Assembly: GCF_937873765.1 (NCBI RefSeq)
Contig: NZ_CALMZC010000037.1
Span: 62,001-126,000, forward strand
Reading direction: 5' to 3'
DNA from: an uncultured Thiothrix sp.
Lineage (GTDB): Bacteria; Pseudomonadota; Gammaproteobacteria; Thiotrichales; Thiotrichaceae
DNA: 64,000 nt
Shown here: in pieces, positions 27,032 to 33,120 of the stretch
Layout of the letters: each line of letters opens with the position of its first letter
Numbering within the stretch: position 1 is the stretch's first letter
Position numbers and translations under genes: made by a program
Notes under the pieces: generated by a model
Databases searched by the model: none
Seen by the model: the letters and a program-made list of their open reading frames with translations, nothing else
Told to the model about the DNA's origin: nothing

Positions 27032-27782
27032 TTAAGTCACCAAAGTATCCATTAAGTCGATCATGAACTCCGTATCCTCCTGCTGGAGGATTTCCCAATC
27101 GGTGAAGCCTAGATTATGCAAGGCGTCGCGACCTTTTAGATCGGAGCTCATATTGGCCAGTATTGTTTTCAGGGTTTCATGCTCTACTTGTAAATGAGAG
27201 TCTACCAGCAGAACATGTCGAATGTCGTGAATTTGGCTACGAAGTAACTCCCGTAACTGACTACGCACGACCCGAGACAAGCCATCATAAGCTTCTGCTA
27301 AGAAAAAGCCGACATCTACTTTGCCTTGTAGAACTAATTTAGCGACTACTACATAAGTATCAGCAGTGACACTTTGTAGAGTTTGGCGTGTGATATCAGC
27401 TGGCTCTAACAGAATAGAACTTATTGTATTTACATCTGGGGCCTCTGTCACAGCGGCTCGGCAAGTCATTGGCAAATCTTCAATACATTTCACTGGCGAA
27501 TCAATATTGACTGCAATCACTGCCTCATCAGATTTGCCAACAGCGGCGGCAATAGCCTTAAAGCCTTTTTCACGCACCAACATGGCTGCATCAAAAGGAT
27601 TGGCATAGGATAATACCAATTTGATCGCGTTGAATCGCTTCTCGTTGCTTTTGGAAGCTAGGGAATAACTCTAAACGGATGGGGTGACCCCATTGTTTTT
27701 GTAACCAAGTATTAAAAATATACCACCCTGCAATCCGATCAGGACCAATATCAGGGCTTATCGTCATGACTGTGCGCATCAT
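27032..27782 (-). pseudogene. PhnD-like phosphate/phosphonate-binding protein, frameshifted
   Basis: Two adjacent frames together give one protein of about 250 residues. The first frame runs from ATG 27782 and the second continues from near 27616 to the stop at 27032. The break is at CCAATTTG (plus strand, 27616-27623), where one extra base in the A/T run would join REAIQRDQI to LVLSYANPFDAAML. The fold is that of PhnD-type periplasmic binding proteins, yet no signal peptide is present, suggesting a cytoplasmic ligand sensor. No standard slippery heptamer is seen. Either a real mutation or a sequencing error. It overlaps the upstream PAS gene by 4 bases (ATGA). Confidence 0.75.
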
Positions 27783-28770: not shown

Positions 28771-29421
28771 TTATAAGGAGCCTAGCTCACTGCTCCCATA
28801 ACGCATCTCCAAAGCCCAAACCAACTGTTTAAAAGCGGGTTGGTTCAACTGTGGGATGCCGCCGATAATTAAAGTGAAACGATTTTGCCCAATATAAATA
28901 GGCCAAAAGCCCACTTCACTATTACCGCTGGCGTCAATCAATCCCCAAGCGCGTTGTCGATAGCCTAGATTACCTTGTAACAACTCTTTATGACGTGCAT
29001 AGACTGCAGTAAGATTCGCGCTTAAAGCCGCTAATTCCTCAGCAGCCTCATGCGGAAATCCAGCACTTCCTAGATAAAGTCCACGACTTTCCGCTAAGAC
29101 TGCTTTACCCTCATCAGATAAAGTGCGAAGTAGTTGTGGTAGTAAACGCTCTAGCGTCTCCGGTGGAGCTTGTTCGCTATGCTCCAAGCCAATAATTAAA
29201 CCTGCTTCCTGCAGCCAATGTACAAATTCGAGAGCGCGTTTTTTCTTTAGATTGCTTAACTCACAAGCAACTTCGGTGTTAAATAGCGGTGTCTGCGGAT
29301 ACTGGAGTAACTTATGGATGAAATCACGCCCTGACTCGGGCGTATTATCTTGGACAGCATAGTAAACACCACCCGGTGTCGCCCCAAGATAGAGATTTTC
29401 ATTAAGAATGTATTCGCTCAT
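28771..29421 (-). CDS. Uncharacterised GTPase-linked protein with winged-helix-like N-terminal half
   Basis: A 216-residue soluble protein I cannot assign to a family. Residues about 35-80 look like a winged helix (FNTEVACELSNLKKKRALEF, then VHWLQEAGLI). Residues 100-216 are alpha/beta with AVLAESRGLYLGSAGFPHE and GFWPIYIGQNRFTLIIGGI, which could be a second Roadblock-like fold. The ATG overlaps the stop of the small GTPase gene by one base, so the pair is translationally coupled and the products probably interact. Confidence 0.75.
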   Translation of the reverse strand: MSEYILNENLYLGATPGGVYYAVQDNTPESGRDFIHKLLQYPQTPLFNTEVACELSNLKKKRALEFVHWLQEAGLIIGLEHSEQAPPETLERLLPQLLRTLSDEGKAVLAESRGLYLGSAGFPHEAAEELAALSANLTAVYARHKELLQGNLGYRQRAWGLIDASGNSEVGFWPIYIGQNRFTLIIGGIPQLNQPAFKQLVWALEMRYGSSELGSL

Positions 29422-29963
29422 CAGGTATTAATCCCAGGGTCGAGTGAGTACAGGAGCGCTTGCACCAAAGCTGTAATATCAGCTCGGCTGCGGGCATCCA
29501 CTTCAAAAATCGGAGCCTTCAGTGATAATTGATCCAGCCATTGGCGGTAGTCATATAGATTAGGCGCACGTTGAATGTCCATGCGTGTTATCCCGACAAC
29601 CATCTGTTGCTGTTCAATGAAGCGACGAAACGCATTAGTGTAAAAGCGCATATCTTGGAACGGATCTTTACGGGTATTATCTAGCAACAGAATGAGGCCA
29701 ATGCCTCCTTTAGTCAGGATGTCCCACATAAAATCAAAACGTTCTTGACCGGGTGTACCATATAAATGGATACGCTCGTTCTCACCTAAGTGAATGAGTC
29801 CATAATCCATTGCTACCGTAGTTTGCGGTTTACGGCTTTTGGTCATATCAGAGGCTTGTTCATCTGTAGTGACGATGGCAATATCGCTAATCGACGCAAT
29901 CGCAGTGGTTTTACCTGCTCCTACTGGTCCAGTAAAGATGATCTTTTTGTTGGTTGTACTCAT
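29421..29963 (-). CDS. Small Ras-like GTPase, COG2229 type
   Basis: A 180-residue single-domain GTPase. G1 GPVGAGKT is at 12-19, switch-I Thr in TTVAMDYG about 49, G3 LYGTPGQERF at 67-76, G4 TRMD at 126-129 and G5-like DAR at 156-158. The usual DxxGQ Asp of G3 is replaced in the LYGTPGQ version, and the usual NKxD is TRMD; both occur in the COG2229 group found with Roadblock proteins in conservon-type operons. Likely a molecular switch regulated by the Roadblock protein. It starts 5 bases after the stop of the receiver-like gene. Confidence 0.87.
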   Translation of the reverse strand: MSTTNKKIIFTGPVGAGKTTAIASISDIAIVTTDEQASDMTKSRKPQTTVAMDYGLIHLGENERIHLYGTPGQERFDFMWDILTKGGIGLILLLDNTRKDPFQDMRFYTNAFRRFIEQQQMVVGITRMDIQRAPNLYDYRQWLDQLSLKAPIFEVDARSRADITALVQALLYSLDPGINT

Positions 29964-29968
29964 AAACC

Positions 29969-31366
29969 TTAGTTTCCGCCCCCTCCGAGTAAGCGTTTCA
30001 ACAGCCGTGAGAATAAGCCACGATTTTTCTTAGGTGTCTCTTTCTCTTGAATTTCGACTTTGCCTTCATCCATTGCCATTAGGCCTAATACGCTAGCTGC
30101 CGTGAAGAAAGCAAAAACATGGCGCTGTGGTATATCGAGCCTTTGCGCGACTTCAAACACAGTTCCCGGACGTTGCTGCCAAATTGCCGCAATACGCATC
30201 ATATGCGGAATAGTTTCAACTCGTGTTAAATTTGGCCAATGCTTTAACACCCATCGCTGATTAAGATTGACATCACGATTCAAGCGTCCATGCGCAGCTA
30301 ACAGGGTTACAGTCCATAGGAGGCTTTCTAAATTGTGGGTATGTTGTTTATCAGCTTGATAGGTTTGTTCTAACGTGGGCATTTCAGCAACAGTTGGCGT
30401 ATACAAGTGTATCTTGCCTGCCTGAATGGGAGTATTGCAAAGGGTTGCAAAGGCGTCAGAGTTCAGGTCAAAACTGCTATAAGCTAGATTAGAGTTAGGC
30501 AACAATAAGATTTGATCATAAGTGTCAAATTTAAGCTGGATAGCAGTACCTGATTGCTTGGCTTGTTGTAAAGCACTCAGCAGTAATTTCAGTAAATAGT
30601 TGTCGGGTGTAAAGCGCTGTATGGCTGCTTGTGCATTGGCGGGATTAACATCAGCTTGTGTACCACAGAGTAGTTTCCAGCGCTGTTCTTGTTGTTCTTG
30701 ATTTTTTTCTGGAGTGGCAATAGTCCCAAAATGTAAGAAGCTATGATTGTCTGCTTCTTCTGTAAGTACTGGTTCAGAAATATCACGAATTAAAGCTTTC
30801 GCAGGGAATATTGGTTTAGGTGGTTCCTTAGGAATGGATGGTATCAGCGGCTTTTCAGCCATAGGCTGTTTGGCTTGAATGATTGTATCTGCGTCATCTT
30901 TATCAAAATCTACTAGCAGTGACGGACGAGCTTTGCGTTGGCCTAAACCAAAAGGTTGTGCGGCTGTATTAGACTTTTGTGCTAAGGATTGGTGTAGAGG
31001 CGTAGCAACACTATACTCTCTCTCAGATTCTGACGCTCTACCTTGCGGTAATAAAGCACGTACTTGTTCAGCGGCATGGGTCAGTGCTTGCGAAGTCAAG
31101 GGTTTAGGTACCCAAATAGTATTGGGCAGTTGGACTTCACGTACTGATAAGACAATGCCTAGCTTATTAGTATCGGTGCGTCCATGCCATTCAAGGTCAG
31201 CACCTGGATGGTCAAAATCAATAATTAAGGTTTCAGCATCTGCTATTGAGGTGACTTTAAACAGTTGCTTGCCAGCTCCTGCAAAGAAAAACTCCAGTAT
31301 TGCACGGTTGTGCGGGCTAATACTAAGCAATGCAATCCGTAGAGGATTTCCTGATGAATTCAGCAT
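29969..31366 (-). CDS. Degenerate-receiver multidomain protein of unknown function
   Basis: A 465-residue protein not matched to a named family. The first 105 residues look like a response-regulator receiver fold (IALLSISPHNRAILEFFF ... WVPKPLTSQALTHAAEQV) but without a clear phospho-acceptor Asp. A low-complexity linker (about 110-215) follows, then an alpha/beta region with LHFGTIAT, and a helical C-terminal part (about 345-450) with a winged-helix-like FEVAQRLDIPQRHVFAFF. The basic, Gly-rich end is LLKRLLGGGGN. It probably acts upstream of or alongside the GTPase encoded next. Confidence 0.7.
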   Translation of the reverse strand: MLNSSGNPLRIALLSISPHNRAILEFFFAGAGKQLFKVTSIADAETLIIDFDHPGADLEWHGRTDTNKLGIVLSVREVQLPNTIWVPKPLTSQALTHAAEQVRALLPQGRASESEREYSVATPLHQSLAQKSNTAAQPFGLGQRKARPSLLVDFDKDDADTIIQAKQPMAEKPLIPSIPKEPPKPIFPAKALIRDISEPVLTEEADNHSFLHFGTIATPEKNQEQQEQRWKLLCGTQADVNPANAQAAIQRFTPDNYLLKLLLSALQQAKQSGTAIQLKFDTYDQILLLPNSNLAYSSFDLNSDAFATLCNTPIQAGKIHLYTPTVAEMPTLEQTYQADKQHTHNLESLLWTVTLLAAHGRLNRDVNLNQRWVLKHWPNLTRVETIPHMMRIAAIWQQRPGTVFEVAQRLDIPQRHVFAFFTAASVLGLMAMDEGKVEIQEKETPKKNRGLFSRLLKRLLGGGGN

Positions 31367-32757: not shown

Positions 32758-33120
32758 ATGGCTAAAAAGGGAGCGGGCGCAGCTTCTCTGTTTGAAGCTG
32801 ATATCGAGATAGTAGGTGATATCTCATTTGCAGGTGAGCTATATCTGCAGGGACGCGTAAACGGTAATATTATGGCTTCAGGCGAGTCAGGAGCCTCTCT
32901 CTTTTTGCAGGAGCATAGCGAGGTCAATGGTGAGATTCGCGCGCCTACATTGGTAGTTTCTGGGCGAGTTGCTGGAGATATTTACTCCACTCGGCGGGTT
33001 ACTTTAAAATCCAGTGCTGATGTCGTAGGCAACATTCATTATGCAGAAATTTTGGTTGAACAGGGCGCAAGCGTGAATGGTATGCTAGTATCCTTAGGGC
33101 AAACCGAGCAAAAATTATAA
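32758..33120 (+). CDS. Bactofilin (polymer-forming cytoskeletal protein)
   Basis: A 120-residue protein whose core (about 12-112) is the short right-handed beta-helix of bactofilins: IVGDISFAGELYLQGRVNGN, LFLQEHSEVNGEIRAPTLVV, SGRVAGDIYSTRRVTLKSSA. Bactofilins polymerise without nucleotide and place proteins at poles or sites of wall synthesis; in Myxococcus they also act with GTPase polarity systems. ATG follows GAGG with a suitable gap. Short terminal tails are typical. Confidence 0.95.
   Translation: MAKKGAGAASLFEADIEIVGDISFAGELYLQGRVNGNIMASGESGASLFLQEHSEVNGEIRAPTLVVSGRVAGDIYSTRRVTLKSSADVVGNIHYAEILVEQGASVNGMLVSLGQTEQKL

Follow-up and report, generated by a model that had tools for sequence, protein, structure and literature searches.

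MglA-type small GTPases of Group 3 are distinguished by a GTPGQ sequence in G3, a threonine in G2, a G4 motif without lysine and a DAR sequence in G5 (PMC4316618). In the same account (Wuichet and Sogaard-Andersen, 2014) Phyre2 related the N-terminus of their partner protein to receivers and its C-terminus to winged helices, with a variable linker in between, and transcription was suggested as the output. Orphan mglB alleles of the Group 3 system of Snodgrassella are associated with motile flares on soft agar and with gut colonisation (PMC11112851). In Myxococcus xanthus MglA-GTP works via the TPR protein SgmX on the pilus ATPase PilB (PMC7519303), and the receiver-domain protein RomR forms together with RomX a guanine nucleotide exchange factor complex for MglA (PMC9481161). 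SofG acts together with its cytoskeletal partner BacP (PMC5595344). In the papers found, the role of Group 3 MglA is judged from neighbouring genes and, indirectly, from data on one bee symbiont. Here we describe an operon of an uncultured Thiothrix sp. (assembly GCF_937873765.1, 4.01 Mb). The window, i.e. the whole stretch of 64,000 nucleotides that was analysed (contig NZ_CALMZC010000037.1, positions 62,001 to 126,000), carries on its minus strand, in the order of transcription, the genes for a TPR-like protein, a receiver-like protein (RL), a small GTPase, two Roadblock proteins (B216 and Robl120), a PAS protein, a PhnD-like protein and a FimV-like protein. With moderate confidence we read this operon as a Group 3 MglA system that would act as a switch for polarity or type IV pili, with RL as its scaffold or effector.

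The GTPase matched the Pfam family Ras with an E value of 1.5e-06 and 28.3 bits (cut-off 21.6). Its motifs are GPVGAGKT (G1), TTVAMD (G2), LYGTPGQ (G3), TRMD (G4) and VDAR (G5). Judged from these motifs the protein matches the Group 3 description point by point. It consists of a single domain, stays within the Group 3 limit of 240 amino acids and contains GTPGQ, a threonine of TTVAMD replaces the arginine of Group 1, G4 lacks the lysine and G5 contains DAR. The conservation of these motifs was followed in 80 GTPase loci, the best 80 of at least 588 confirmed matches in named genomes. GTPGQ was found in 79 of these loci, a G4 motif of the type T[QR]xD in at least 77, [VI]DAR in 77 and the TTV of G2 in all 80. 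A first-pass annotation, made from the sequence of the window, had called G3 and G4 non-standard. This holds relative to Ras, but within Group 3 both motifs are normal. A claim of novelty for them was rejected, since they were already published (PMC4316618) and are typical across the 80 loci.

A receiver-like gene ends no more than 800 bases before the GTPase gene (median 30) in all 74 loci with room, a count that takes only loci with enough contig. On the same basis the TPR gene was present in 68 of 70 loci, B216 in 77 of 78 and the Roadblock gene in 73 of 76. Matches to RL were obtained in 60 of the 63 genomes of the order. A sample of 20 loci, hand-picked among those order genomes having RL, contained RL, GTPase, B216 and Roadblock genes throughout (20/20) and the TPR gene in 19. 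The class sample comprised 369 genomes, 60 with RL, 66 with the GTPase and 53 with both; in 20 class loci chosen for having RL, tblastn detected the GTPase in 16 and B216 in 13. The operon is scattered over gammaproteobacterial families, often with the PAS and PhnD-like genes downstream. Candidatus Thiothrix singaporensis harbors RL and GTPase in one open frame (L104:7519-9531, plus strand), possibly a sequence error in what is a metagenome assembly. The coupling of the two genes proposed by the first-pass annotation was borne out by these data, and its positions for both open reading frames, including the 5 bases between them, were reproduced (Table 1). In two loci (L138 and L157) a tandem pair of receiver-like matches precedes the GTPase.

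An AlphaFold2 model of RL, built on 67 sequences, revealed a receiver-fold domain (residues ~8-108), a low-confidence linker (~116-218) and a folded part (219-432). The predicted local distance difference test (pLDDT) score of the N-terminal domain was 94-96 for the blocks 11-60 and 71-100, 85 for 61-70 and 83 for 101-110. The strands and helices of this domain are beta1 (9-14), alpha1 (18-29), beta2 (36-38), beta3 (46-50), alpha3 (56-62), beta4 (69-74), beta5 (83-87) and alpha5 (92-105). In the model beta4 and beta5 follow each other without an intervening helix, i.e. alpha4, which is part of the usual output face of receivers, is missing. Comparison of residues 8-108 by VIA-align yielded the response regulator 6lgq_D as best match (Z 11.4, root mean square deviation 2.2, 98 residues), tied with the next of the 50 rows listed (Z 10.5-11.4). 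Foldseek alone gave no match below an E value of 0.001; its first row was a human Rossmann-fold protein (6.8e-03) and its second was CheY. Pfam, NCBIfam and PADLOC contained no match to the RL protein of the window. The model and the VIA-align result support the receiver-like fold that had been proposed for this N-terminus, and fold and linker agree with those of the Group 3 partner.

The proposed lack of an evident phospho-acceptor aspartate was contradicted. The model places D50 at the end of beta3, a position which we take, from the order of the strands, to be that of D57 in CheY. S74 is located at the end of beta4 and K88 after beta5. Of the 67 aligned sequences, 64 have Asp and 3 have Asn at position 50; S74 is Ser in 60, and D52, K88 and P89 are invariant (67/67). 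RL thus combines a phospho-acceptor Asp with the conserved Lys and Ser of receivers, as would be expected of a working response regulator in which a histidine kinase phosphorylates D50 and thereby gates the GTPase. However, the acidic pair that binds Mg in receivers is absent from the protein of the window, which has S15-I16-S17 instead. Within the family, Asp occurs at position 15 in 10 and at position 17 in 37 of the 67 sequences, and all 67 have a hydrophobic residue or Ala at position 16. Because the acid pair is gone, ordinary Mg-dependent phosphorylation probably does not switch this receiver domain, despite its Asp, Ser and Lys; in relatives it may occur. The missing alpha4 also speaks against a response regulator, as does the result that none of the eight operon proteins scanned against Pfam and NCBIfam contains a kinase domain (kinase-family names in the NCBIfam scan arise through the PAS domain only). 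We consider phosphorylation of D50 by a kinase quite improbable. Since the acid pair is lost, RL may instead receive an unphosphorylated signal.

The folded part of RL ends with a segment that may be winged-helix-like, residues 389-432 of which show the order helix-helix-helix-strand in the model. This order fits the published winged-helix-like description. RL might therefore be a transcription factor, in which receiver-like domain and GTPase control a DNA-binding winged helix and the output is gene expression, as suggested from the Phyre2 assignment of a receiver-like N-terminus and a winged-helix DNA-binding-like region (PMC4316618). A mean net charge of +3.2 for residues 341-433 in the 67 sequences is in line with this proposal. 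However, the helix at the recognition position (PQRHVFAFFTAASVL in the window) is mostly hydrophobic with a mean net charge of +0.8, and it keeps aromatic and small residues, which in our judgement is more typical of a protein contact. The first winged-helix row in Foldseek was weak (2yu3, E 0.41) and VIA-align listed none, though the receiver domain filled both searches. A role of RL in transcription is regarded as unlikely.

An origin of the middle part of RL from PATAN/DUF4388 was considered; it may still apply, but the searches gave no support for it. DUF4388 was not detected at an E value of 1e-5 in 142 class genomes, and it was likewise missing from the families listed for the 67 RL proteins. 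Profile comparison of RL with B216 revealed no similarity. Beyond the folded part, the C-terminus of RL carries a basic helix (451-459) that is conserved. Averaged over the alignment, the net charge of residues 440-465 is +5.2, and a comparable basic tail was also found in three operons that lack the GTPase. The hydrophobic moment of the tail is 0.63. Since the same 12 residues, when shuffled, reach this value in 8.6% of cases, amphipathicity by itself is not significant, and conservation is the better argument.

Two Roadblock proteins accompany the GTPase. The AlphaFold2 model of B216 has a mean pLDDT of 90.5 and matched the Roadblock protein 3kye (4.0e-05) and MglB 6hjm (5.8e-05) in Foldseek; the VIA-align rows cover residues 87-210. 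The N-terminal part is mostly helical and, by eye, winged-helix-like. Pfam Robl_LC7 is weak in the B216 family, where 32 of 72 members matched at E values up to 0.1, and profile comparison of B216 with Robl120 gave no similarity. Robl120 was 80-100% identical in all 20 chosen order loci, each time above the identity of the GTPase. Robl120 and the Roadblock domain of B216 correspond to the one or two MglB homologues expected near a Group 3 GTPase. A further Roadblock gene of the genome lies outside the window (G000 contig C37:148189-148416, L196), possibly an orphan MglB as reported for Group 3 systems.

No GTPase match at an E value of 1e-3 or better (best 0.0013) was obtained in 7 of the 60 class genomes with RL. 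In three of these seven, from two families (G162, G207 and G378), the genes for TPR-like protein, RL, B216 and Roadblock protein stand together (loci L092, L187 and L191), the gap between RL and B216 is too small for a GTPase, and none was found elsewhere in these genomes. The G378 assembly is 79% complete, and its operon sits on one contig. Because these three operons keep RL and both Roadblock proteins with no GTPase found, RL is not merely a feeder of the GTPase. This bears on a strict version of the first-pass proposal, in which RL, lacking a phospho-acceptor, relays an unphosphorylated signal solely to the GTPase. The loss of the acid pair and the tight gene coupling, with its one in-frame fusion, argue for this version; the operons without GTPase and the Asp at the phospho-acceptor position argue against it. 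The strict version appears rather improbable. The operons without GTPase represent a natural experiment on the receiver/Roadblock part by itself.

Table 1. Genes of the operon and its divergent neighbor, with positions in the window (aa, amino acids).
Feature	Position	Strand	Basis or remark
TPR-like protein, 239 aa	31392..32111	-	first gene of the operon; part resembles the large FimV of the genome
RL (receiver-like) protein, 465 aa	29969..31366	-	open reading frame, AlphaFold2, structure comparison, conservation (67 sequences)
Group 3 MglA-type small GTPase, 180 aa	29421..29963	-	open reading frame, Pfam/NCBIfam, motifs (80 loci), PMC4316618
B216, 216 aa, mostly helical N-terminal part and Roadblock domain (~87-210)	28771..29421	-	AlphaFold2, Foldseek, VIA-align, weak Pfam
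Robl120, MglB-like Roadblock/LC7 protein, 120 aa	28324..28686	-	Pfam Robl_LC7 3.2e-15
Stand-alone Aer-type PAS protein, 153 aa	27779..28240	-	PDB match 8dik, Pfam PAS models
PhnD-like binding-protein domain, 195 aa of ~245	27032..27619	-	Pfam Phosphonate-bd 1.8e-22
FimV/HubP-like polar landmark protein, 522 aa	25463..27031	-	NCBIfam FimV_Cterm 9.6e-11
Bactofilin, divergent upstream neighbor	32758..33120	+	Pfam Bactofilin 8.7e-24

Among the neighboring genes, that of the TPR-like protein showed no Pfam match at E values up to 1 in the window, and weak Pfam TPR matches were found in two of five relatives. The profile of its family matched the large FimV of the genome (2e-13). The best PDB match of the PAS protein was the aerotaxis receptor 8dik (7.2e-36). 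Besides one row at chance level, it matched Pfam PAS models only; the chemoreceptor signalling domain, which together with PAS makes up Aer, is lacking. The motif RHP[DE]MP, a flavin-site motif, is kept in 44 of 54 PAS relatives. The PhnD-like match covers positions 53-241 of the 242 of the Pfam Phosphonate-bd profile. Its relatives begin ~55 amino acids earlier, and no signal peptide was recognized by eye. Compared with intact relatives the gene is frame-broken near the N-terminus (window 27600-27780, minus strand), with the N-terminal part upstream in another frame, as a result either of gene decay or of an error in the sequence. PhnD-like genes were present in 48 of 70 loci with room, PAS genes in 50 of 73 and FimV-like genes in 20 of 63.

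The FimV-like protein exceeded the cut-off for FimV_Cterm (41.6 bits, cut-off 30.65) and stayed below those for FimV_core (23.3, cut-off 43.45) and Pfam LysM (19.9, cut-off 20.9). A second FimV is encoded by a frame of 1200 amino acids on another contig of the genome. A FimV-like gene lies near the operon in 25 of the 80 GTPase loci. Seven such neighbors from six loci, including two of Sphaerotilus and one of a Burkholderiaceae genome, were scanned, and all seven passed at least one of two FimV cut-offs. Of the 80 loci, 25 have a bactofilin gene that lies 2.4-3.2 kb upstream of the GTPase. In 19 of them, from Thiothrix, Thiolinea, Leucothrix and their kin, this gene is divergent; the other 6, five of Sphaerotilus and one of a Burkholderiaceae genome, have it co-directional. 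At L128, L132, L134, L135, L139 and L143, which belong to Sphaerotilus and to one genome of the Burkholderiaceae, the operon is accompanied by a co-directional bactofilin gene and a FimV-like gene, just as filamentous Thiotrichaceae combine it with a divergent bactofilin gene. The pilus protein PilM, counted at E values up to 1e-10, was present in 63 of 66 GTPase-positive and in 231 of 303 GTPase-negative genomes (Fisher p 1.6e-4, kinship ignored). This co-occurrence agrees with type IV pili as the output but is no proof.

In the favored Group 3 switch the GTPase would cycle between its GTP and GDP forms, and the Roadblock proteins, as homo- or heterodimer, may serve as GTPase-activating protein or co-regulator. 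As scaffold or effector, RL would use its folded C-terminal part and the basic tail, which is conserved, to connect the GTPase/Roadblock core with the pole of the cell or with the membrane. The most likely output would be the placing or activity of polar surface machinery, e.g. type IV pili. FimV and bactofilin may provide local landmarks in Thiotrichaceae, and the Aer-type PAS protein, where present, would be the likeliest sensor input. The enlarged gene set, with its redox-sensor-like, cell-pole and cytoskeletal members, points to a function in cell polarity or in surface behavior that depends on pili. In a more speculative form, which we hold to be unlikely, filamentous sulfur bacteria would possess a redox-steered polarity switch without histidine kinases. 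The stand-alone Aer-type PAS protein would signal the redox state to the receiver-fold scaffold and the Roadblock pair, and these would set the state of the GTPase or, in operons that have lost it, work on their own. A FimV paralogue and a bactofilin would confine the output to the pole.

Several observations weigh against the proposed polarity or pilus switch. The PAS gene is missing from 23 of the 73 loci with room, 13 of the 66 GTPase-positive class genomes have no RL match, and operons without the GTPase exist. With the window proteins as tblastn queries, FimV and bactofilin were not found in the 20 class loci, a test that is weak for FimV because this protein diverges fast. At L188:5631-7612 (plus strand) a FimV-like frame (4.4e-09) directly follows RL in another family, in a genome where no GTPase was found. 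Since the 20 class loci lack matches and the FimV-like frame of L188 occurs without the GTPase, the links to FimV and bactofilin are mostly lineage-bound, mainly to Thiotrichaceae and Sphaerotilus-type genomes. PilM is widespread in the class, with 294 of 369 genomes at the threshold and 272 over the family cut-off, so its co-occurrence is weak evidence, and the GTPase-positive genomes G097, G366 and G377 are without PilM, which may reflect assembly gaps. The link to Snodgrassella is indirect.

The M. xanthus module MglA/MglB/RomR/SgmX (Group 1) is similar in combining a GTPase with a Roadblock GTPase-activating protein, the receiver-domain protein RomR and a TPR effector; in addition, the sister GTPase SofG has a cytoskeletal partner. 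With its polar landmark and bactofilin genes the operon resembles the Myxococcus polarity module, from which it differs in gene order and partners. Group 1 possesses the G2 arginine and TVPGQ in G3 (PMC4316618), whereas the GTPase of the window has Thr and GTPGQ. The actinobacterial conservons (Group 2, CvnA-D) share GTPGQ in G3, DAR in G5 and a Roadblock protein (PMC4316618), and the conservon protein CvnB5 (3leq) gave a weak profile match to the B216 family (E 0.044). Conservons contain a CvnA-type histidine kinase, in place of which the operon has the receiver-like protein. The mgl locus of Snodgrassella is likewise of Group 3 and has several mglB genes including an orphan, comparable to the one Roadblock gene outside the operon here; the available excerpt of its description mentions no PAS, FimV or bactofilin gene (PMC11112851). 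Within the open-licence literature no paper was found that treats FimV, roadblock and GTPase together, and among the papers listed on roadblock with winged helix or aerotaxis, titles and abstract beginnings showed none on this operon besides PMC4316618 and PMC11112851. The closest relative is the Group 3 MglA system of beta- and gammaproteobacteria, which shares the GTPase motifs, the receiver-like partner and the one or two MglB homologues (PMC4316618). The type of system, the receiver-like partner and the odd GTPase motifs have thus been known since 2014. Compared with the available part of that account, the present analysis adds the TPR, Aer-type PAS, PhnD-like, FimV and bactofilin neighbors, i.e. 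a larger operon with flanking polarity genes in two lineages. It further adds the N-terminal extension of a Roadblock protein, a receiver domain that keeps Asp and Lys while the acid pair is lost, and operons in which RL outlasts the GTPase. With a sensor of the aerotaxis type, FimV as a landmark and bactofilin in the gene set, the question of whether Group 3 systems serve polarity and pili or transcription becomes directly testable.

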